Of a stretch of DNA of 64,000 nucleotides, positions 1 through 55,780 are shown piece by piece. Made by a program: the position numbers and the translations under genes. The stretch comes from Physcomitrium patens (Eukaryota; Streptophyta; Bryopsida; Funariales; Funariaceae): NCBI RefSeq assembly GCF_000002425.4, contig NC_037270.1:3503834-3567833 (forward strand), given 5' to 3'. The notes under the pieces are model-generated. The model did not search any database, was not told the DNA's origin, and saw nothing but the letters and a program-made list of their open reading frames with translations. Numbering within the stretch: the stretch's first letter is position 1; each line of letters opens with the position of its first letter.

Positions 1-3000
1 GGCAGTTATAACGACTTACCTTGTTAATAATTCTAAAGCGGTGTCTACATCGTCGGCGTACTCAATCAATGCTCCCACTCTTCGCAGATATGTCGCTGCC
101 ACTTCCTGCTCCATATCCAAAAAAGATCAGAACTCAAGCGTCAGATAATTCTAGCATCATTAAAGCTTCAAACTTTCAAATTTTATGTATGAAAATTCTT
201 TTACGAATATTTTTTATGAAAATAAGTGGGGTGTTTGAGACAGTACCTGCCGCACGGGATTAGCATCAACCAGAAGCACCCTGATTCCTCGGATACGCTC
301 GTCTCCTAAGCCAGATGGCGAGCGCTTCATAGCGAAGGCCAACTTCTGCAGATCGCCTCTTTGCCCAGACGTTGGCAACACTAGCGAAAACTTGAAGACA
401 CTGCCCTCTCCTGGTTCGCTTTCAACAACTATATCTCCTCCTGTAAACCTTACCAGTTTCTGCAGAATATCACAACAGATCTGTGGTTAGTGCAACATTC
501 TTCTAGTTCCGGCAGAATCTTCCGTCCTTTGAAATAAGAGGGTGTGAAGGACAAACCAAGATGATCGCTTACAAATGGCCATTGCCGCCGAAGTGAACGC
601 AAACCTGCCGTGTTGAAGAGAGCGAATAAATAGACCTCAAACATAGTTTGACTAACGCGCACAGCAATCAAATAGAAAAATGTAATGACTACTTAGAACC
701 AAGCCTTCGTGGATCTGGTTCAGTTTATAGAACCAACCTGGCAAATGGATAAGCCGATGCCAGTTCCGCCGTACTCCCTCGAGGTGCTGCTGTCCGCTTG
801 CACAAATGGTTCAAATAGCCGGTTCTGCATGAATTTAGGGATCCCTATTCCTGAATCTTCGATTGATATGACGCAAATCACTTCGTCGAAATCCAAACCA
901 CCGATAGGTTTCCAATTTCTCCATTCTGCTACACATGCTGATGTACTCGAAGGACCTGATTTCATGCTCAATCTGGGAGGAGCCATGTGAGGATGGCGCG
1001 GCCTGAATAAATTGCTACGAACAGCTATAACTCCTTTTAGACTAGCATCATGGTTGCCATCTGGAAGTTCTGCCTCTGGAATACGCCTTCGTCTTGTATC
1101 CACAAGGTCAAGAAACTGCTGGCTTGAGGGAGGAGAAACTGTTTCATAGAAGTAGGGATCCACAAGCCTCACGCACAGAAAGATGCTTCCTTGCTTAGTA
1201 AACTGCACAAAAGAAACAAGGAACTTGAGTAAAAGTTTTTCATAGTTCATCAGACAAGCTTCTGCACATCGTAAGTAACACATAACGCAATAAGCATGTC
1301 AATAGTGAATTGGACCCGCACCTTGATAGCATTTCCGACGAGATTGATTAAAACTTGACGCAATCTTCCAGGGTCACCGTACAACCACCTGGGAACAGAA
1401 TCATGTACCAAAGCTGAAATCTCGAGTTTCTTCTGATGCACTTTTTCTTCAAAAAGAGAGAGTATATTGTCCAACTCCTCTCGTATGTCAAAGGGCACTG
1501 TTTCTATCTCCATTCTTCCAGCTTCGATCTTGGAGAGGTCTAGAACATCGCTTATCAAGGCCCTGCACAAGCATACAGCCCCCACTCGTCAGGGACTGAA
1601 CAAGTTCTGAAGCAAATCTAAGACACTATTTACGGAAGATTTCAACATTCTATAAGTACACCACCAGTTTCAAAGATCGCAAAGACGGATACTTACACAA
1701 GAGCGTTGCCGCTGGCCTGTGCAATCTTTACATACTCAAGCTGCTGCGGTGTCAAATCCGTGCCCATCAATAAATTTGTCATCCCTGTGCAGAACGATCA
1801 GAACCTCAGATGTCGCCTTTTCATTTTTGGCTAGCACTCGCAACCAAAATCCCTTGTAGCATGATCAACGACAAGCCCCCCTTCCAAACTAGCAAGAAAA
1901 AATTTGAATTCTGAAGAAGCAACAGTATTACCTATTACGCCGTTCATGGGAGTCCTAATCTCATGCGAAACCGTGGCGAGAAAACTGGACTTGGCTGTAT
2001 CCGCAGCCTCCGCCTTCACTTTGGCAGCCCTCAATTGAGCATGTATCTTCTCCCTTTGGTAAGCATCTTTTTCAGCAGCGGACATTCTCTTCAACACAAG
2101 GTAGACTGCCACGGTGCAAAACACAACTACCGCCAACATAAGCAAGGGCCATGCAATCATCTCCCGCAACACATGCAATCGAATGTTGTAATTGTACCAA
2201 CACTCCAGCACAATATACTGCGTCCCATACGTGAATGGAACAGAAACCGCCTCAACCGACTTGGACCTCGTTCGGTTCCCGTAGAAGCGAACTTCACAAG
2301 GATTTGTGTTTGCACTGCAGTTGTAATAGGAGTTAAGGTCCAGTGCAGAATCCACTTTGGCAATGGCACTGATATATAGGTCTGCGTCCCTGAATCTGTC
2401 CAAATTATGAACTTCGTGAGAACAGGTCATAAAATGGCTGTGAGGCAATCAATGTATCAGAGACTATTTTCAGAGCATCTGTTTCTCTCGTTAAAGGTTA
2501 ACATTCCCTACGAAAGGCAGGCTTTACAGCTTCAACGATGCGAGGAGATACTACTTGTATTCTGACAACGCAGGCTTGAGAACAGAGCAGAGAACGAGGA
2601 TCCCACATACAAAGGCCACTAATTTGCCTACATCAAACAACGAGGCTGAGAATGTTTGCATACTGACCACTCATCTACCTGTCACCCTAATGAACGGCGA
2701 AGAGGAGCAATCAAATGGTTGACACCTCAGTATTCAGCAATTCGGTAAGAGAGAGGGAGAGAGATAGAAAGAATGCGGCATTGAAACAGGTTCTCTAGGC
2801 ACTTCCCCAAGGTTCAGAAAAACAAAACGAAAATGTACATCCAATAGAAGAAGCTAAATACCAACCTTGAAACAACGGAGCCAAACACCTCCTCAACATT
2901 GAGAACGGTCGCTACATAACCTACACATCTGGCTCTTCTGACTGCCTCATTTTTGAGAGTAAGTGGGTCGAAATCGCCATAGTTAGGCAAGAACGATCCC

Positions 3001-4115
3001 ATTCGCCAAAGACCACTCTGCAAGTAAGGTGCTGACAGGGAGAAGCTGCCCGTGTCCCTTGCCTGAATAATTGAACTCTTTAGAATGGGGTAACCGAACG
3101 TGTCCATCATGTATGAAGAAACACCGGCAGATTCGAGGATTACAGGTGCATACTCCACATCTGGTTTCCGAGGAAGTTTGATTCTATTCTGGTAGGTGTA
3201 CATGGTCGCATTGTATTTTTTCTCCACCGCCTGCCTCTGTTCTGGCAAGACGCGCAAACAGTACGCCAAGCTTCTCACATGGGGGCGCAGGAACAAAGTC
3301 TGATCTGTGAAAGCTAACCATGTCTGTGGGTCCACATCTGGAACGCTAGTTACCAAACCAAGAATCACAAAGGAGGCCCCTAGGTTGTTATCCACTTCCG
3401 ACTTGAATACCTGTCCAAGGTGAAAGGGAAACACATGAATACAATCTCGAACTAAAAGCTTTTCCAGCACAAACCTAGAAATGTTTTTGGAAGTACATTT
3501 TAGAAGAATTAAATACATAAAGTAGGACTCTCGCCTCATATGTGAATCACAACATTGCATTTGGCTTAATACACGTTCTGCCCCATGCCAGAACGGTCTT
3601 GAAGACTATGTGCATCTAGGCGACCAGATATCTAGTCCATTCAGCGTACGCACATTCAACATGCCGAGACGGACTGCGACGACATCTGATCCAGACGTTG
3701 AACGTAGATTTACTTTGTCCACCCTCGATGGCAAAATTGCACTGCTACTGCTCACGAGCAGTCACCTTCCTGTTACAAACGAATTCTGGTCCAACAAAAA
3801 GAAAGCGCCCCATGCTAGCTCCTGATTTTCCCTTTCAAACAAAATATCTGACACCATGGTTGCTCACAACCCTGGTCTAGAGAGGAGCAGCGTACTTACT
3901 TCTTTGCGGTTCTCGCACTTGAGCTGAATCTCCTGCCTCTTATTGGACAAACCATTCTTGTAAACCACCACCCCCACCACAATTACCAGCGTACATGCAC
4001 ACAAGATACACAATATTCTCATCCACCAGCATCGTAAAGGATTCAACCAACACCACCGCCCCAACAACCACATTCGCGGCCTCGTGATCAGGCTGGACTC
4101 CATCTCCGACCCCAT
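1..4115 (-). CDS. CHASE-domain hybrid histidine kinase HK1 (cytokinin-receptor-like), 5' eight exons, cut by window edge
   Basis: Receptor-type hybrid kinase that would sense a ligand outside its membrane-bound CHASE domain and pass phosphate His-Asp. Exons read on the minus strand: 4115-3900 (N-terminus and membrane helix [19 protein letters not shown]), 3410-2866 (CHASE, with VEYAPVI and a QARDTG motif), 2437-1932 (end of CHASE, second helix, coiled linker, H box [13 protein letters not shown]), 1784-1697, 1562-1322 ([12 protein letters not shown] box NLVGNAIK), 1202-738 (G1 box DSGIGIP, F box, G2 [10 protein letters not shown]), 459-247 and 105-20 (receiver-like domain). All junctions are GT-AG. 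The canonical receiver lies beyond base 1. The start at 4115 is chosen because it leaves about 33 residues before the helix, like the paralogue; an in-frame ATG at 4334 adds low-complexity residues. The CHASE domain lacks the usual VLTFPVY-like strand, so it belongs to a divergent group and cytokinin binding is doubtful. No lesion seen in the part present. Confidence 0.88.
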
Positions 4116-12060: not shown

Positions 12061-15000
12061 ATGGATTTCGAAGAAATTACTGCTCCCGTTGTGGCACCGG
12101 ACGTCATGCCCAACAAGCCGTTGCTAATACTATCCGTAGTGCTTGGGTGGTTACTTGCTTGCGGCGTCGTCGCAATACTATGGAAGTGCTCTCTGAAGTC
12201 TTTATAGGACGAGTTCTATCTAAAGTGTGAGAAGCGGAAGGAGGTGAGTCCCATTGAATTGCCGCATCAACGTCATGGATTTCTTCAGATTGTGCTGTTA
12301 ACGAACTCCTTAACAAATGTTTTAAACAAGTGTGATATTTCTTTGCTTGCCAGATTCTGAAGTCACAAGTAGAGAACAATCTGAACGCTTTGTTCGTAAT
12401 AATCGGCCTGGTGGCGAATCTGCCAGGTCTCAACGAGATCACATGGAACAAATTCACTTCACAAACGTTATTTCTCCTTCCTCATGTGAAGAGGCTGGTT
12501 TACATGGAGCGAGTGTTGCACAGCGACCGGCCAGCCTTCGAGAGGAAATGGAATGGTAGCATCTCTTACCTCGAAGGCAATGCTACATTTCCGAGGGGCA
12601 TCGACACAGAGTATGCCCCCATCTTGTTTGGAGCGTCAGATGTACCACATAGATTTCTGGATCCGTCAAATTATCCATTCCTCAAGTTTGCTATCCATGC
12701 TGCACGAGACACCGGTTTGTTCACGCTTTCGCCAGCAGCTGGAGGGCCACTGTCATGGCAGATGGGAGCTTATCTTGCATACTACGGGGCAGGTAGGGAA
12801 GGATCTTCGTTCGCTTCCGTAGTAGAGCGTACGCAGGCATGCCTCGGATACGTGGGAAGAGTGGTAAATATATCAGAAATCTTCTCGAGGGTCCTTTCAA
12901 TGTTAGCCACAGTCACCAGTGAAAGATAGTTCGTAGGGCTTAGAGTTAGACGTCGTTCTTTTCATACTGTTCGCATATGATGTGATGATTGACTTTGGTG
13001 ATGTGAATTAAGTGTGCATAGGGTCGTCCACAATGTGGAAATGGACATGGTGGCTGAGTATCTTGTGGATTCCTCAGCAGATAGAGACCCTAGTTACAAT
13101 TGCAGCGCAACGGGGACCGCTTGTGCAGTGGCCTCGTATGACCCAGCCCATAGAACCGTAAATGCCTCGGCTGTGGCAGAGGTCCGGTGGAGTTATGGGA
13201 CGCCGCAATTTGCGCTGCGCTGCGTACCCTATTCTTCTCCATCATCGTCTTTCTTGTATGTAAGTGAATACAAGCTATTGAGAGAGACGTCAGGGTTATA
13301 GAGAAGATGAATGTCGATCTCGAGGCTGCCAAACTTGCTGCGGAAGTGGCTGATAAAGCCAAGTCAAACTTTTTGGCAACAGTTTCTCATGAAATCAGGT
13401 ACGACGCCCTGGTTATTCCACTGCTTAGGTCAAATGATTCCGATGACACTCGATTGGCTGGCTTTTCTATCTCCATATCTGTCGTTCTCATTACAATTTG
13501 CGGTGTTACTAACCAGAGTCTGCATTTCTGACTGTTTGATGCAGGACGCCCATGAATGGAGTAATTGGTGAGTGTTTCCCAGTGTCCTGGCTTCTGCAGT
13601 GTCAAAATGTCCTTCGTTTATATCTCGATGTATGGAATATTTTTAACCATTTTAAAATATGATTTTAATTATTCTGTCTCCTATTTTGACTTTTTACAGG
13701 AATGGCCAATTCGCTGATGGGAACAAACTTGACACCTCAACAGCTAGATTATGTTAAATTTGCACAAGCAAGTGGAAATGCGCTTTTGTATTTCATCTTA
13801 ATCACTTTTGACATCAGGCGTAGTTCAGTTCTGAGCTTATCATTAATCGGAATATGCATATTAAACATCCTTGATAGACCCAGAAAGGAGAATTCAGTGT
13901 TAAGCACCTTGCTAGAGACCCCATCCTGTAAATTAAAGGTTTTTCTAAGTGGTTGCATGGTGCTTCTGTCAGTGCGATCATCAACGATGTTCTGGATTTG
14001 TCCAAGCTTGAGGCCGGGAAGATGGAGCTTGAAAGTGTTCCTTTTAACCTCCGGAAACAAGTGGATAGTGTTTTCACTTTGTTTGATGATAAATTGCATC
14101 AGAAGAAGCTTGAAGTCTTCATGCTCGTCCACGAGCCTGTTCCAAACTTAGTTGGTGATCTTGGTCGATTCCATCAGTTAATGGATTTTGTGGTTCCGCA
14201 TCTATTTTATTCGCAAATTCTTCTTATATTGTGATTGTGTAAGGGTAAACTCCATCAAAAGGCTACTGCTAACAGTTACCCTTCCATATCTGCGTATTTG
14301 CATATTTGACTTGATTAAACATTTGACGTTTGTGCAGATCCTGGTCAATCTTGTCAATAATGCCTTGAAGGTAAGCATGGCTCTGGCTTCGCCCTATCTC
14401 ATATTTGCTCCTCATCCGCGATTTCTGTAGATAAACCTCCTGTAGCGTTTGAGTAAGCTTTGTTCAAGCTCAAACTTCAGCCAAAAAACGGCAAAAAATG
14501 CCCTTGTCGATTGAACTGTTGACTCATGCTTTCCGGCTGTATATTAAATTTCAAGGTACTAATATTTTTTTCTTCATGCATTCAGTTTACAAAAGAAGGG
14601 AGCATCCTTGTTTCCGTTCGCGTGATGGACCCTTATTCGGAAAAGGACCACAATGGTTCGAGTTCTGAACCTGTCGGCTTGGTGAGCTCAGATCCAAAAG
14701 CGAAGGGGTCCATACAGCTGTCCCAGGTACTGCCTAACGCGAGCTATGGATTGGATTCCAGTAAAGTTTTAAGGGGCGGAGTTTTTAGAAGAGACGAAAC
14801 AGACTTAGCAAGAGGCAATACTGCTCCAAGGCTAAGCATGCATTCTGGAGACGAGGGGAATACTAGAGAAGCCGTAGAAGCATGGAGGGCCTGGAAATTA
14901 ACTACAATGTCAGGTAGAAACTGCAAGCCACCAAATAATTTCACGGTCATAGTTTCCGATACAGGTGATTGGCTTCGAAAGTCCACTTGATCATGCAGAG

Positions 15001-21079: not shown

Positions 21080-21898
21080 TCAAGAGTCGAGGTTGTCTGA
21101 ACCCAAACCGAACAAAACACCAGCATATTTTTCTGTGGAACCATTAAAGAAACCATCCTTCAACTTGCGAAAAGTGCGAGAAGTGAGCAAACTATCAGAC
21201 CCGGCCTGATGGCAAGGACCAATCCGCTCCACGTCCAATGTCTCAGCCAGGCGATTCAAACCGCCATGCAAATTGTCGCAAAACTTCATCAGGTACTTGA
21301 TATCATACAGGGTGGGAAAATACGTCCGCAGCAAGTTAAAGAATTCATCCTCACTTGTCGGAAGATTCTGGCAAGTAAGTAGCTTCAACAAGTAGCCAAA
21401 ATCGTATCCGCTATGGAAAGTGATCCAATGCACATTTTCATTCAACACAATTCCTGAAGACATCAAAAGCTCGCCGAATCTTTGTGAATCAATCCCTCGC
21501 TCCTCGTTTTGCTGGAAATCAATTCCGCTCTGTTTCAGCAGCTCAATTGAGTCATGTGCATACACATCTTCTCTGAGGTTAAACTCCCGGAAATTGAATT
21601 GCCACACGCACGAATCCCGAGAACCACACCGCGGTAGGACCCCGTTTTCGTCTGAAAACGTGAGCCCCAACTGAATAAGTTTGAGCATGTCCACATTCGC
21701 CCTAAGAGTTTGATAATGATACTCTGCACTGTTCTTAAACGTGCCGACGGGTCTCACCACCACTCCGGGAAACTCCGTGTCCATCGCAACGTAAGGATAC
21801 TCATCAACAATGTCTCGTATCAGCTCAAACTCGTCCTCCAGGTTATCGGCCCATACCTCCCGGATGCGGAGGGAACCTCCGTTTGCAACAATCGACAT
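21080..21898 (-). CDS. CAF1: CCR4-associated factor 1 (CAF1/POP2) poly(A)-shortening deadenylase, single exon
   Basis: A 272-residue, intronless protein matching the usual plant CAF1 length. It is a DEDD-type 3'-5' exoribonuclease that shortens mRNA poly(A) tails as a partner of CCR4 on the NOT1 scaffold, in the cytoplasm and nucleus. The catalytic acids are visible: D40 and E42 in AMDTEFPG, D166 in [12 protein letters not shown], and D235 in [10 protein letters not shown]. Other family signatures are the N-terminal [28 protein letters not shown], the WQFNFREFN segment and [12 protein letters not shown]. The ATG at 21898 fits the family N-terminus. It stands alone, convergent with HK2, and its upstream GC-rich leader probably occupies 21.9-22.5 kb. 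No defect is seen. Confidence 0.97.
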
Positions 21899-22800
21899 GT
21901 AGTTGGGGTTTCCTTCTTAGGATTCTTCGTCCTCCGCTCTCCAAACCGCTCCCCCTCCTCCACTGTAGTTGCATAAGCCGCTCGCCTTCTCTGCTCTGGC
22001 TAAGGCTGGCACCTATAGCCCTGCGAGTCTCCACCTCTATGCCTTCTACCCTCGAGATTCTCTTACACCACATAAGAAAGCGACCACACAAAACAAACCC
22101 AAAATATAACCAACACCACCAACAACCCGAACCAACAACATTCACTCTCTAAACACACACTCCTCTGCTCCGCTTCTCCATAGGCTCATCACCTTCTGTT
22201 GCAAGCTTCACAAACGCACTCACCCACCACTGCCCACTGTGGAAATCGCCAGAACACAGCAGAATCGACTCAGAAACTCCCGCATCACATATTCAAATCC
22301 CTATTCACCGCAACACCGTCCAAAGCACGCGAACAGGCATAACTACAAGGGGGACAAACTGAGCAGCGTGAACACAGCGAGGAATCCAGGAAAATGTAGA
22401 AAAGGCCAATAAGGGGGGAAAGGGTATCTTGCAAGCAAGACAGCTTTAATCGGAGACACAATCACGGCGGGAAGGGAAGAATAAGCTGTGCGAGGGAAGC
22501 GCAAGGGAGGAAGAAGAAGAAGAAGAAACGGGGTCTAGCGGGGGCACAGGATCAAAGCACCCGCACCACCATCACCACGACGAGGAGGAAGAGGACTTGG
22601 ACGGACGAACGGATGACGACAACGAAGAGGACGACGAGGCTCCCTTGGTAGTAGGCGACCTACGTCCCCCCGCAACCGCGGTTGGGCCACTGACCCGGCC
22701 TGATCAGACCTGCGGTCCAGACGCGGATTCACCGCCGCTGCCCACCTTTGGAAAAAGCAAAACACGACAAAAAAAAAAAGGAAACATCACATCCTCTTTT
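21899..22800 (-). promoter_or_regulatory. CAF1 upstream region, including an acidic/His-rich open frame without ATG
   Basis: GC-balanced DNA immediately upstream of CAF1, likely its 5' leader and promoter. On the plus strand a frame stays open through a GAA run (about 22509-22528), a CAC/CAT run and a GAC/GAG run up to about 22.77 kb, predicting Glu-, His- and Asp-rich peptide. It has no ATG before the repeat region, so it is not called as a gene. It could be an exon of an unseen gene or just trinucleotide-biased leader DNA. Confidence 0.35.
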
Positions 22801-23460: not shown

Positions 23461-26400
23461 TGACAATTTGAAAAGAGTACCAACTTATTGTTTTTATCTT
23501 ATTTTAGAAGTGAGTGGATTACTCTACTTCTATTGTTTTATTTTGAAGGTTGTAGATTATCCATCTTTAAACAAACAATCTTGTATTTTGATACTAATAT
23601 TTTCTTTAAAGAGAGTAGATTCTCCCTGTTTATGGAAATTTTTATTTAATATTAAAGTTTACAGATTATTCTCCTCTAATTTAATTTTTTGAACTTCTTT
23701 GAATTATCTATAGAAGAAAAGATTATCGATGTTATTCTCAAGGGAAGTGAGAATAGATTTGCAACTATTGCACATCTTCATGAATTTGTCAACACTTTAA
23801 GAATAGAAATTTTGCATATTTCCAACGTAAATTATAGAGGTACTATTCCTATGCATATGGAAGAAGTTTAGAGTGTACGACAATAAGTTGTGCAATTTAA
23901 GGAAGCGAGTAGATTGACCTCACAACCAAATTCAAAGAATTTTGCTTCTACAAGTATGACAAAAATAAGGATTAGTATGCTTAAGAAGTTTGATGGAACA
24001 AAATCAAAATTTTGAAGATTTTTGCAACAAGTTAAGCTCTATCTAAAATTGCATCCCTTCCATTACTCCGATGGATTTACTCAAGTCAGATTCATAGGTG
24101 CAGTTCTATCAGAAAGTACTCTCTTTTAGTTTACATTTTTGATAGAAAAGAATTCATAACTCCTTTATAATTTGAATTCATTCTTAGAAGTATTTACAGC
24201 CACATTTAGAAAAAGTGATCAAGAAAGAGTAGCAGAGATGAAGCTCTTATCTTTGCAATAAGGATCACGGTCATCCACCATATATATTGTTGAATTCCAA
24301 AACCTAGCTTGTAATGTGGACTAGAATGACAAAGCCCTTATCAATGAATTTTGATATGGATTGAAAGATAATGTCAATGATTTATTATTGACAATGTTAA
24401 AAATAAAATCTTTGAAATAATTTATTGCTTAAGCCATTGTATGTAATAATTCATTATTTAAAAGATATCAAGAACAAAGACTTGGCTAAAGAGGAACAAA
24501 TTAAATAATGATGGTAGCTCCCAAGTTTTCAAAAATACATTCATCAAGGCTAGAACCAATACAAACTGATATAATACATTTTAAATTCTTCATAGAATAT
24601 GAAAAGATTTGACAACATGAAGAGGACTTATGCTTATGTTATGGAGAAGCTAAATACATTGTTTAACATTGTCTAAAAAAGCAACTCAACCACAAAATAA
24701 AAAGCATGGTTGCCAAAGAAGATGATGTGTCAAAAAACAAGTTTCTCCAGCTACAATAGAGACCATAGAATTGGAATCTTATATAATTCCTAGTAAAGAT
24801 CTTATTCTCTCTTTAGATCCATCACCTTATTTTATAATAGAAGTTTATTTTGGACCAAAAATTCACAAAGTTGTAACTTTATTAGATTCAAGATCCTTAG
24901 TCTATTTTATAGATGAAGATTTTATCAAAAAATAAAAGATATCATTAATTTAAAAAAACTAAATCTATAAATATAGAAGTCATAGATGGTCATTTGCTAT
25001 CTTTTAGAGATGTCATGTATGAGACTGTTTTTTTAGATGTAGCAATTAAAGATCATAATAACATAGTAATATTTAATGTAATAAGATTTTTGTGGAATCT
25101 AATTATTTTAGGATTATCTTGGTTAGAAAAATATAATCCTCAAATAGATTGGATTTTTTGTAACCTTAATTTTTTTGATAATTTAATCCAAAATTTTATT
25201 AGTTAAGTAGAAATACATAAGTCTTAGTACATCCAAATTCTTACTAGTAGGTACAAGAGCTTTTATGCATACTACAAAAAAAGGCTTATCTTTTGCTTTA
25301 TATGCCACATCCATTTTTGATAGTGAAAAAGACATCAAGTGGTATTCCTAGTTAATATCAAGATTTTCGGGATATTTTTAAAAAGGAAAAATGCAGATAT
25401 TCTCCCAAAACATCATCTTTATGATTATTCCATTGATCTTCACAAAGGAGTTCAATCACTATTTGGACCAATCTATAGCCTATTACAATACAAGTTGGCT
25501 GTACTTAAGGAGTACATTGATGAAAACTTGGCTAAATATTTCATATATCATTCTAAATCCCAAGCGAAGGCTCCTATCTTATTTGTAAAGAAAAAAGATG
25601 GAACTTTGCGGATGTGTGTGGACTATCAAGGACTCAACATGATTACCAATAAGTATAAATATCCTCTACTTTTGATTTCAAAACTTCTTGATTAATTGAA
25701 TCAAACAATGATCTATACAAAAATAGATCTACAAAGAATAAATAATCTAGTATACATTAAAAAAATAAATAAATGGAAAATTATGTTTCGAACTAGGTAT
25801 GGATATTTTGAATATAATGTCATACCTTTTGGATTCACAAATACATCAATTACTTTTTAACATTTAATAAATATTACCTTTTATGAATTTCTTGACGATT
25901 CTATCATTTGTTTATTTAGACAACATCTTAATCTACTCTAAAAATATGAAAGAGCATGAAATTCATGTTTTTTTTATGTTACAAAAACTTAAAGTTGTAG
26001 GATTATATGCCAAATTAAAAAAAGTGTATATTCTACACTACTCAAGTTGACTTCCTAAGATATATCATTTTCAACAAAAGGCTAATGATGGATTCAAAAA
26101 AAGTCAAATAGAAAGAAATAACAAACTCCATCTAGTAGCTTTTTATTCCAAATTTTTTTTAGCAACCAAGATAAATTATGAGATCTATGACAAAGAGCTC
26201 CTTGCAATTGTAGATTCATTTCAAGAATGACATTATTATTTAGAAGGCGCCTTGAATCTAATTGTAATATATACCTATCACAAGAACCTCAAATATTTTA
26301 TGTTTGCATGTATTTTGAATCGTTGTTAAGTTCATTGGAATATGTCTTTATCAAGATTTGATTTTAAGATTATTTATTGATTCAAAAAAACAACAAGGTT

Positions 26401-50899: not shown

Positions 50900-52759
50900 G
50901 TCCAAAATTTCCCTTTAGTCAGATTCTGTGGAACAAACATATTTCTGTATCTAAGGCGGAAATCATTCAATGCTGTCAACATGCTGGTGTTGGGTTATGA
51001 CGTTGAATTTGTTTGTCTCTTTTTCCTTCCTCGATATCGTCGTCCATAATGAGCTTAACTTCATCAACAGGTCTAATTTCTAGATGGAACAACACTAAGC
51101 CCTAGAGATTGCAAAGTTGACGTTTTATCTCCCTTTCCGTCGTTGTCCAGGATCCGTTGTGCATGGCTGTTGATTGAGCATTGCACCTGACAATAGTATC
51201 TTTGCCTGACCAGAAATGGCTATCATTTAATATAATTGTTGCCATGGAGGAATGGTGTGTATGAACTAGCACCTTGTTATCTCAAAAGTAACCATTGCAG
51301 AACTTCACCTGTTGATCTAGACTAAAGTGCATCTTCAGTTCGTTCCGATATTCATTCTGATGTAATGATCGAGCACATGATGATTTAATGATTTGAGCTT
51401 TCAATCGAGACTTAGGGTTCAGGAATTCTTTACGCAGTGAGTGTTCCATTATACCAGATCCTTGAATGATCATGAGCAAAATCTAAGCTCCAATAGGTGG
51501 TTAGTTTAATGGTCCTGTAGGAGCAAAAGTTTGAAGGCAATCAATTGCTGACCTTACATTGGTTGTCGCTTCTGAGGAGACTAGTGCCAGTAGACTTTGG
51601 AGAATGGGGGATTTTAATGTCGGTGGTGACGCAATTGGTCTGGAGTCAGTTGAGCGATAGAGTAGGCCCGCAGTCCAAGGTGCAGATAAATTAATAGCGC
51701 ACATCATGTTGTACTCGGCTTCTTAAGCTTCAACCAGTGGCAGCGATTGCATCGTGCTCTTCCAGGTTCATGATCAAGTAGTACGAACTTTTGTGAGGTG
51801 TCGGATTACTGTTGTGTCATTGATCGTAGATTCTAGAGTCTGATGAATGGAGTGTTTGATACTCTGAGCTTGTGTTGATGTCTAGTGTCCTCCAGGTAGT
51901 ATCTTGGAGACAGGATAATGTAGCCAGCTTGTGGAGGCAGTGACCACAGTCGTAGCCACCGAGGCGCTCCTCAAATGAGCTTTAGCGATGATGAAGCTCA
52001 TGCGTTGGTACCACTGTCGACCCAACCCTTGTCTTGCCTTGGTAATGTTCTTGTAGGAGTTTGTCATGGAAAGTTGCAGTCATTCGAGAAAGAGCGTTAG
52101 CTTGTTTTCTACAAGCAATTTTTGGGACGACCACAAGTGGCCCAAGTGAGCTAGGGTTTAGTTGGATCCTGTAGAAATTCACACCGATTAGAATATACGG
52201 GAACCTTATGTGAAATTCCCTCATTGAATACAAAACTCACCGATTCCCTTTAACACTCTAGGTTTTCGAGAGTAGATGTACTTTTTACAGTTTGTGCTAG
52301 AGATATGAAGGATTTTTGCAGGTTTTATAGTAGATTGAGGTAGAACGTGACAACATCGGAAATCCGGAAGGCTGAAGGTACCACAGCGGATAGATGTTTA
52401 ATGCAATTAGTTTGAATCGTTGTAACCGGCTCAGCTGGTAAGTCATCATTTGAGATGCAAGAAGCAGTAAATTAGAGTCGTAGGCCTTAGCGAAGATGAA
52501 CTACACAGTACTGGACGTCCAAGTTTCCCTTCATGAAATTATGCACTAATTCCTCTCTATCTGCCTAAGTGAACGAGCAGTAGTGGCGATATGTCAGTTT
52601 TTTTATGGTTTATTTGTGAAGGACACCAAGGTTCCGTTGAACTTATGTTTTTCTTGCTGAGCCTTCAGATAGCTATATTTTAGCATGTATTGCTGATACA
52701 GACCCTACCAGTTGATAATCATTCTACACACAGTTGACATCTTCCAATCTGTCTGATAG
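50900..52759. other. Interval upstream of the Deg-like gene
   Basis: Gene-like composition but no frame with a domain. Open frames at 51479-51282, 51707-51501 and 52233-51882 (minus) carry no motif. It probably holds introns and upstream exons of the plus-strand gene that starts to be readable at 52760. Confidence 0.3.
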
Positions 52760-55700
52760 GGAAAGGGATCTGGTAAGCAAAAAATTGGTGAGGTTGAACC
52801 GGAGTTGGCGATTACAGGTAGTAGTAGCTCGAAGCTTCTAGTCACCGTTGACAGCTTCGGCGCGGTAAATGTTCTCACCCCGGACAAGTTTGGTGCACTA
52901 CGAGAGCCGGAAGGTGAAAGGCCAAATGCCTGCTTTGATGTTCAAAACAAAGTAGAGTCCAGTACCAGATCTTCCAATCCATTTGAACATTACGCTCGAG
53001 GTAGCAAGTATTCTCAAGCGTGTCCTGAAGCGACGGGTTCTACAAATGATTCTACATGGACCAAGTACATGGAAGTCTTTGAAGACAAAGGAACAGGCGT
53101 TCTCAGCAGTAAGGAAACTGGTGCTCAAAACCCTGGATTGCAGTCTTCAACTCCTATCTTTTCCACTCTTCACGAGAGGACATCAACAAGAAGTGGTGGT
53201 GGACCACGAGTGCGACGTTTCTGCTCACCAACTGAATATGTGAGTGTTTTCAAAACTTTACGCCTAACAGAGGGTCAGAATTCCGGATACCGTGTACAAA
53301 TTGCTCAAAAGAATGTATGCAAGCACAGACTGTGGGAGAATGTAAAACAATTAAATTAGAGAACCTGGTGTTAAAAAACAACTTATGGTAGTTGGATGTC
53401 TCAAGGGACATGGTAGAGCATTGCTATGCAAGCCCTGGTAAAACCGCCGGCGTGGCCGTCCAGTTTTATCGCGAGAAGCTGATAAATGTCACAACACCAG
53501 TCGTTAGAGAACCAAGTCGCCGAGCTTCAGTTATTGAAAGATATGAGTTTCAAACGACGTTATGGATGAATCATCCAGTGTGAGCATCCCGGTTTCCGAA
53601 TATAGCTCCAAGTTTATGTAGTTTCATATTCTCAAGTTTTCATTAGGGCCCAAACTTGGTTTCTTAACTTAAATGTAGTGATTTCGCAAAAGGCTCGGCC
53701 TGCATTCTTGTGTAGCATTACAAATCGAGAAGAATGAAGGCGGTTGCTTTGGCTGAATTAGAAGATTTATACATATGATTTGTAACTCATGCAGACTGGT
53801 ATTTGTTTTGCGTATCTCCTTGATATCTTCGAACTTTGTAATCGTGACCAATATGAATGATTTGGGCTTGTAATGTAGCAGTTCTGACTGCAGCAGCTTT
53901 CTCCAAGGTTTTTACTCGGGATTGTTTATAGCTGATTATTACGCTGGAGATGTAGCAATCGGGCTGGTGCAGCAGAAAGGTTTTGACTGTCACTGGAGGG
54001 TACCAAAATTTAGCTGCGTCACTGTTCAAATGATAGTGAAATACTCCACCTTTGTTCCTTCGGGAACATGGACCACTCTTGTAGAACAACTAGCTGACAT
54101 TCACATTTTTGTTGCGTCGGAAACCAACTGATTTAATTGTGATTTTCAATTCTGGTCCACCATAGGTTGTGGGTGAAACGCTCAAACAGCAAGGATTCTC
54201 TAGAAAAGATCTCGTCGTAGCAGATCATAATGTGTCCCAGCCAGTTGCTGAAGATAGATCATTACCTACAGCTCACTCCAGGTGCTCCCAAGCTCCCATC
54301 ATTGTAACACCGACGCGTACTCCAACTGTGGGTTACAGTTTTGAAAGAACTTTACTGGTACAGGGCTCATCTCATTCGTCACTGCCGAACGAACAAATTT
54401 CGCTGGAGGTTCTCCCAAGGTTTCCGCTCATGGTTCCCGGAAGCTCGGGCGATGCAAGGCATTCTCGAGAGTCGACTGACCAGTATCCCCGGAGAATAGA
54501 GTACAAATTTGCTTCTGCAAGTCTGGAAGCGTCCTTACTTCAGTATATGGAAGAAAGAGAAAGAAAACAGGTAGAACGAGGCCTTCAACCTTGACAGATA
54601 ACTAGCAACGTGTTCAAATTTTATGTTGTGAGTCAATGCCTATCAATTTGAGTGCTAACCGAGAATGCCGCTGCCATCAGATCAATGAAGCATATGAAGA
54701 GAACCGAATGCGCGGGTATGTCACATCACCGGAGGTTGGTACCGCGGCATCCACTACAACCTATTTCTAATGTATCAAGTCGGTTCAGTCCTGGAGGTCT
54801 ATGTGCATTGTTTAACGTTGTGTTCTAGGCAAAGTGCTAGTGCAGCTGATTGGTTCGGTGAGCAAACTAACTATGATTATCTGGTGTGGTTTCCCTCGTT
54901 TTTGTAATTGTGCGAAGGATTTGATATGGGGAAGTGTAAAGCATTACTGCGGAATAGTACTAGACAGAGAAACCAGAACTCTTCTCGGCACTGCCGTGCT
55001 TTTTGTACCTCCTGATCCTTCAATGTCAGGATGTTCCACATTTTTCAAGTCTGCGTGGGTTACTTGCGTGAAAGTGGTGGAAGGTCGCACAGAGGTTCTT
55101 ATCAAGACTAGCAAGGGAGGTATCCATGTGGCGCAGCTCATGCTTACCAGCACAACCCTGGGATTAGCCCTTTTCAGCGTTCATGTTTGGCAGGGAACAT
55201 TTGCACTAGCCTTCCTCAGCAGAGTGACTGGGCCAGCAAGTCTTCCACACCGACTGTTTGTGGATGTAGCGCGTAATGACCGAGTTTATGTCATCGGGTA
55301 ACTATTCCGCTGCACTTCGAAGTTTCTTCATGGTTTACCGTTGTCATTAATATCAGGTTGTTATCATTAACTGAACCGTGTCTCTTAAAGTTCAGACCTG
55401 CCGAATATATAGATATGCACATTTGCTAAAGCTGCTGCACATGATTAGGCACGCCCTTTCAAAAAACTCGTGAGAATGACAATTCAAGTTACTGCAGATA
55501 TGAGGAGCCTTTGGGATCTGAGACCGGACTCCTCGCAGATGTGAGAGTCCGATCGGGAAGAGTAATAGATGCTGGGAGGCATGCAATTGTTGAAATTGAC
55601 TTCGAAACCGGTCGATTGGGTGGTTCCATCAATATTGCAGCAGGGTTTCGAGGCGGGCTGGTTGTTCGAGCGGATGGATTGCTGGCAGGGTTGGTGACTG

Positions 55701-55780
55701 GTGAGATCTTGGGCGGTCACCCAACTAATATTGATTTTTCTTATGCCATTAATATCTACTCCCTTCTTGCGGAGCTCTAA
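52760..55780 (+). CDS. Multi-exon protein with C-terminal trypsin/Deg-like domain lacking the catalytic triad
   Basis: Supported exons: 52760-53239 (Ser-rich, no domain), 54166-54570 (low-complexity, ending in a charged helix), 54681-54734, about 54830-55297 and 55498-55780, mostly with GT-AG borders; pieces at 53.39-53.58 and 53.92-54.13 kb are uncertain. The last two exons follow the order of a chymotrypsin-fold Deg/HtrA protease: a WVTCVKVVEGRTEV strand, a GLALFSV strand, DRVYVIGYEEP, then AAGFRGGLVVRADGLLAGLVTG. Against the family pattern (xHVVEG, DLALL, GNSGG) the His is Lys (55071), the Asp is Gly (55161) and the Ser is Arg (55649). So it should be a non-catalytic relative, perhaps a binding or scaffold protein. 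Peroxisomal DEG15 is the nearest plant family I can recall for the tail, but identity is unproven. The true start is not determined. Confidence 0.55.

Follow-up and report, generated by a model that had tools for sequence, protein, structure and literature searches.

A maintained family of triad-less, PDZ-less Deg/HtrA-like pseudoproteases in the moss Physcomitrium patens

A locus in a 64,000-nucleotide stretch of the Physcomitrium patens genome (contig NC_037270.1, positions 3,503,834 to 3,567,833; hereafter the window, with coordinates counted from its first letter) raises the question of whether a Deg/HtrA protease-like domain can be kept by a plant when its catalytic residues have been replaced. 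The gene at this locus is one of five related copies in the genome. The His and Asp of the His-Asp-Ser triad of Deg/HtrA proteases are lost in all five copies and the Ser in three, and the domain is under strong constraint. The copies form a real, maintained pseudoprotease family, and their form, with a long N-terminal part and no PDZ domain, is new relative to the tables in the available part of a 2012 inventory of plant Deg proteins (PMC3473262).

The domain makes up the C-terminal 220 residues of the protein and is encoded by two exons in the window copy, 54918-55297 and 55498-55780. The first exon ends in phase 2 and is followed by gtaact; the interrupted Gly codon is completed by the second exon, which also carries the stop codon. 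An earlier note on this DNA, made from the letters alone, had recognized both exons correctly but began the first at 54905 instead of 54918. The exons and the codons at the catalytic positions, the latter placed by profile-profile and MAFFT alignments with DegP, are as follows.

54918..55297, plus strand: coding exon 5, which encodes barrel 1 of the HtrA-like domain
55071..55073, plus strand: AAA, encoding Lys (K52) in place of the catalytic His
55161..55163, plus strand: GGA, encoding Gly (G82) in place of the catalytic Asp
55498..55780, plus strand: coding exon 6, which encodes barrel 2 (assigned by alignment) and carries the stop, 60-77% identity to four paralogues
55649..55651, plus strand: CGA, encoding Arg (R178) in place of the catalytic Ser, in GFRGGL

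The three codons read exactly as the earlier note had given them. When the spliced window domain was compared with Pfam, it matched Trypsin_2 (PF13365) with an expectation value (E) of 1.2e-5 over profile positions 12-144 of 144, which agrees with the proposed Deg/trypsin-like nature of the domain, although the score of 26.5 bits is lower than the curated cut-off of 27.6. From the sequence, a relationship to Trypsin_2 is likely. A 249-residue version of the domain, which still contained a later dropped exon (54829-54857) and served as the query for the first Pfam, PDB sequence, NCBIfam, and genome searches, gave E 1.7e-5 and 26 bits with Trypsin_2 and no match in NCBIfam. A search of viral contigs found no relative.

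The register of the catalytic positions was determined with 30 bacterial DegP homologues, out of 80 loci retrieved with a DegP fragment, aligned exon by exon with MAFFT. Exon 5 has an overall identity to DegP of 15-25%, and its landmark stretch SAWVTCVKVVEGRTEVLI...TLGLALFSV lies against DegP GYVVTNNHVVDNATKIQV...QSDIALIQL, so that Lys falls on His and Gly on Asp. Exon 6 is 22-31% identical to the second halves of the DegP homologues, with IAAGFRGGLVVRADGLLAGLVTG against DegP AAINRGNSGGALVNLNGELIGINTA, placing Arg on Ser. When the family profile was aligned to a profile of 33 DegP sequences (hhalign), the same three residue pairs were returned over 144 aligned columns, an extent reached by none of 200 column shuffles (maximum 95).

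The window's own genome (470 Mb, 101 contigs) was searched with the window domain. Five loci with two domain exons each were found, which is a lower bound: C18 (the window copy), C21, C19, C11, and C7. A search with the C7 copy returned the identical five. Over the domain, C21, C19, C11, and C7 are 81, 75, 63, and 62% identical to the window copy, respectively, and 109 of the 214 gap-free columns are invariant among the five copies. The domain is open in every copy, all five end at the same place, and the exon boundaries match. In a tree of the five copies, C11 and C7 are joined with a support of 1.0, and the placement of C19 has a support of 0.32.

The ratio of nonsynonymous to synonymous substitution rates (dN/dS) was calculated over the domain by the Nei-Gojobori method for all 10 pairs of copies, two of which are saturated at synonymous sites. 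It is 0.105-0.166 in the other eight, the values being rough for the four of these with dS above 1.7. The least saturated pairs are C18-C21, with a dS of 0.83 and a dN/dS of 0.143 (bootstrap 0.09-0.21), and C11-C7, with a dS of 0.72 and a dN/dS of 0.131 (bootstrap 0.08-0.19). For the N-terminal part of C18 and C21 the ratio is 0.38 (316 codons). Constraint is thus strong on the domain and moderate on the N terminus. These values are a clear argument against the view that the loci are decaying gene copies with unconstrained sequence. The missing catalytic residues and the sub-threshold Pfam score would suit decay, but five open domains with matching exon boundaries, and a ratio to the closest copy with an upper bootstrap value of only 0.21, largely refute it, and we give it next to no probability. 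The judgement of the earlier note that the protein is maintained is upheld by the same observations.

The catalytic positions themselves have not been kept as a set. All five copies have Gly at the Asp position, whereas the His position is Lys, Gly, Lys, Asn, and Asn and the Ser position Arg, Arg, Arg, Ser, and Ser in C18, C21, C19, C11, and C7, respectively. A conserved Lys/Gly/Arg set, as envisaged in the note, is therefore not found; only the Gly is invariant. Around these positions the residues Trp-47, Val-48, Thr-49, Val-51, Val-54, Glu-55, Gly-56, Arg-57, Gly-176, Phe-177, Gly-179, Gly-180, Leu-181, and Val-182 are identical in all copies. The frame of the active site has thus been retained, with two of the three catalytic positions variable. 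Because related proteases have Ser, this residue likely preceded Arg at its position, provided that the tree is rooted between the two groups. Asp and His were probably lost before the copies separated, and the change from Ser to Arg would have followed in one of the groups.

Could the family still be catalytic, using an active site that has been relocated or reduced? Ser remains at the nucleophile position of C11 and C7, and the copies share invariant His residues (H111 and H201) and several invariant Asp and Ser residues. In contrast, the His and Asp positions are lost throughout and Arg stands for Ser in three copies, and H111, as judged from the alignment, seems to fall between the barrels, in a region (residues 91-126) where the AlphaFold2 (AF2) model is unreliable. 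We consider a surviving enzyme very improbable: with His and Asp missing from all copies and Ser from three, proteolysis is very unlikely.

PF13365, used as a query against this genome, gave 29 exon matches, none of them in the five-copy family, which was missed probably because the intron splits the score. From these matches, 16 moss Trypsin_2 fragments were assembled, several of them short or partly spliced, and compared with the family profile. The best of the 16, at a weak level, is Deg15 on C24, whose triad motifs are intact (AHLLEPW, LDIALL, HPGGSGG). Among the 15 matches listed by hmmsearch it has an E of 0.0017 versus 0.18 for the next, and with hhalign it scores 28.6 over 153 columns, at a probability of 15%, versus 20.4 over 24 columns for the next. 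When the alignment was rerun, its score of 28.4 exceeded those of all 150 column shuffles (maximum 22.2). The moss Deg15 (L122) contains a degenerate trypsin-like stretch, GMEGGPVFDERGNLVGM, in its N-terminal part, beside the C-terminal domain that carries the triad motifs. This degenerate domain was rejected as a closer relative of the family, as it scored 20.6 over 23 columns (best shuffle 20.8) versus 28.4 over 153 columns for the C-terminal domain. The Deg15 link is a lead drawn from these comparisons and not proven membership.

The architecture of the window gene, with 324 residues followed by a 220-residue domain in last place and no PDZ domain, is that of the Deg15 clade. Deg15/TYSND1, the peroxisomal processing protease of clade IV, is described in the available part of the inventory as lacking a PDZ domain and having its protease domain toward the C terminus after a long N-terminal part (PMC3473262). 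The family differs from the Deg15 of this genome in that Deg15 keeps its His, Asp, and Ser motifs, and in that the N-terminal part of Deg15 contains the degenerate stretch, whereas exons 2 and 3 of the window gene gave no match in Pfam. The Deg15 clade is characterized by location in the peroxisome and by the processing of type 2 peroxisomal targeting signals (PTS2), and an SKL-type end is a feature of Deg15. In the family there is no such end resembling a type 1 peroxisomal targeting signal (PTS1), since all five copies end in EL.

These comparisons bear on the possibility that the protein is a regulatory pseudoprotease, which pairs or competes with an active Deg such as Deg15, or whose dead cleft shields the substrates of that protease. 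The nearest moss profile is indeed that of a Deg15 present with intact motifs, and the Gly and the loop residues next to the former active site are kept. However, the PTS1-like C terminus is absent and the link to Deg15 is built on weak scores, so we regard this role as possible but doubtful.

Several observations weigh against the explanation favoured below, a non-catalytic protein with an HtrA/Deg-type double barrel of perhaps Deg15-like descent. The Trypsin_2 score is formally sub-threshold, and only three of the five members match the profile at E ≤ 1. The DegP hhalign score of 20.4 was matched by 5 of 200 column shuffles and is not convincing alone. The alignment with Deg15 places the first barrel out of register, and the short fragments among the 16 tilt the ranking toward the longer Deg15. 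DegP rows served to guide the AF2 model, and a Foldseek search covering the first barrel found no match that reached E 1e-3. The exon 6 model is poor, with a predicted local distance difference test (pLDDT) score of 47.7. In a profile search of PDB sequences, none of the 14 matches is a protease, 13 being SETD8/KMT5A, with a best E of 0.048; a PDB sequence search with the 249-residue query likewise gave no protease, and an alpha/beta hydrolase at E 0.65.

The poorly modelled second barrel, the PDB profile search, and the ability of shuffles to reach the DegP score would all be expected if this were a real coding family with a different fold and convergent landmarks. We consider this improbable in view of the Pfam E of 1.2e-5, the register held across the His and Asp landmarks, the AF2 model, which supports the first barrel, and a Deg15 score above all 150 shuffles.

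The gene that carries this domain consists of six coding exons starting at ATG 51975 and encodes 544 residues, as determined by comparison with the C21 copy, which encodes 536 residues with the same exons and phases; the N termini of C19, C11, and C7 were modelled in part only. The gene seen in the note was real but longer than supposed, with its start ~2.9 kb further upstream. An early model with extra exons at 53392-53579, 53879-53999, and 54829-54857 was dropped; none of these was seen in the paralogues, where the exons join without them. The exons upstream of the domain are as follows.

51975..52007, plus strand: coding exon 1 (ATG, MSFSDDEAHAL), aligning to MNLNDDEVAAV, an ATG exon that precedes the C21 paralogue, with a gt donor in both
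52760..53239, plus strand: coding exon 2, which contains DSFGAVNVLTPDKFGAL and belongs to the Ser-rich N-terminal part, 48% identity to C21 (E 1.4e-34) and weaker similarity to C19, C11, and C7
54166..54570, plus strand: coding exon 3, also N-terminal, with KFASASLEASLLQYMEERERKQ at its end, 54% identity to C21, the exon end also being found in C19, C11, and C7
54681..54734, plus strand: coding exon 4 (INEAYEENRMRGYVTSPE), which recurs with its phase-0 junction in the gene model of C21

Exon 2 is bounded by the splice sites gatag/GGA and TAT/gtgagt, and for exon 4, SPE-like codons followed by gt are visible in C19, C11, and C7 too. The long Ser-rich N-terminal part described in the note is present, with 324 residues and a Ser content of 13%. 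A Pfam search of exons 2 and 3 gave no match. No PDZ domain was found in the window gene, and there is no room for one, since the stop codon follows immediately on the HtrA-like domain. Within the N-terminal part, DKFGA (window 52850-52900; L009, L010, L011, and L012 in the paralogues) is shared by all five copies, although the sequence around it has diverged. It is preceded by a variable FGAVNVL-like run, with an FG[AV] run before DKFGA in four of the five copies. Near the end of exon 3, FAS followed by ME.R recurs in all five. DKFGA looks like a docking motif.

Inactive Deg proteins are not new to plants. The note knew of no triad-less Deg-like protein of this architecture in plants; that triad-less Deg proteins in general are unknown there is not supported, as the available part of the inventory lists such proteins for Arabidopsis, poplar, rice, Chlamydomonas, and P. 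patens, the latter with two (PMC3473262). The set comprises AtDeg6, AtDeg16, PtDeg17, OsDeg-like 1, 2, and 4, and P. patens Pp1s176_111V6 and Pp1s67_44V6; as in the present family, at least one triad residue is mutated or the domain is incomplete (PMC3473262). AtDeg6, AtDeg16, and OsDeg-like 4 also lack a PDZ domain, but AtDeg6 and AtDeg16 have ~200 amino acids and OsDeg-like 4 is PDia-PDia, whereas Pp1s176_111V6, Pp1s67_44V6, PtDeg17, and OsDeg-like 1 are PDia-PDZ and OsDeg-like 2 is NT-PDia-PDZ (PMC3473262). The tables available from this source have no row for NT-PDia without PDZ, so the family is set apart by architecture. Most Deg/HtrA proteases have at least one PDZ domain, clade IV and Deg5 having none. 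The inventory omitted inactive proteins from its tree and reports a role in trimerization for the degenerate protease domain of AtDeg7 (PMC3473262). The second protease domain of Deg7 is, like that of the family, a retained non-catalytic HtrA-type domain, but Deg7 is a protein of ~1,000 residues that also has an active domain and four PDZ domains. In the open-licence literature, no paper on a bryophyte pseudoprotease was found. The MamO protein of Magnetospirillum, which reportedly binds a transition metal in magnetite biomineralization, is bacterial and differs from the family.

The flanks of the paralogues were compared for microsynteny. Of the 138 matches, 131 start in a low-GC stretch (window ~22900-44000), which is repeat-rich as judged from its supplying these matches. 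Four of the other seven fall upstream of both the window gene and the C21 copy, and three are in a cysteine-synthase-like stretch downstream of the C18 and C19 copies (L143, ~3.2-3.6 kb past the window end, and L136:9645-9758; discordant orientation). This stretch is possibly a trace of a segment shared by C18 and C19.

Elsewhere in the window, CHASE domains were found at 723-3605 on the minus strand (E 8e-11) and 12336-12926 on the plus strand (E 1e-8), in opposite orientation and ~9 kb apart; the former is followed by HisKA and HATPase_c frames on its strand, so these are probably sensor kinase genes. A CAF1-family ribonuclease frame lies at 21083-21916 on the minus strand (E 3.8e-23). Within the low-GC stretch, the frame 25327-25692 resembles, by eye, the reverse transcriptase of a retroelement; Pfam gave it no match at E 0.01 or better. 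Rfam and transfer RNA searches of the window gave no match.

The explanation that we favour, and consider probable, is a 544-residue non-catalytic protein in which a Ser-rich N terminus precedes an HtrA/Deg double barrel without triad or PDZ domain, the barrel serving as an interaction or oligomerization module. The long and probably flexible N terminus, with its short conserved motifs, may act in docking, and the barrel may mediate protein-protein interaction or oligomerization, as suggested by Deg7 and by what is generally known of pseudoproteases. A constrained domain joined to a freer, motif-bearing N terminus fits a scaffold or adaptor. The ancestor may have been a PDZ-less Deg, perhaps Deg15-like. 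A more elaborate proposal, unlikely in its full form, is that a family of the moss lineage, derived from such a Deg15-like ancestor, retained five copies following genome duplications as a regulator or substrate trap of an active Deg, with Arg for Ser in three copies and Lys for His in two of them forming a basic ligand pocket, and with different partners for the two sub-groups.

Strong purifying selection on five triad-less domains indicates that the domain is kept for a non-proteolytic job. In a moss with targeted knockouts, that job could be found directly.
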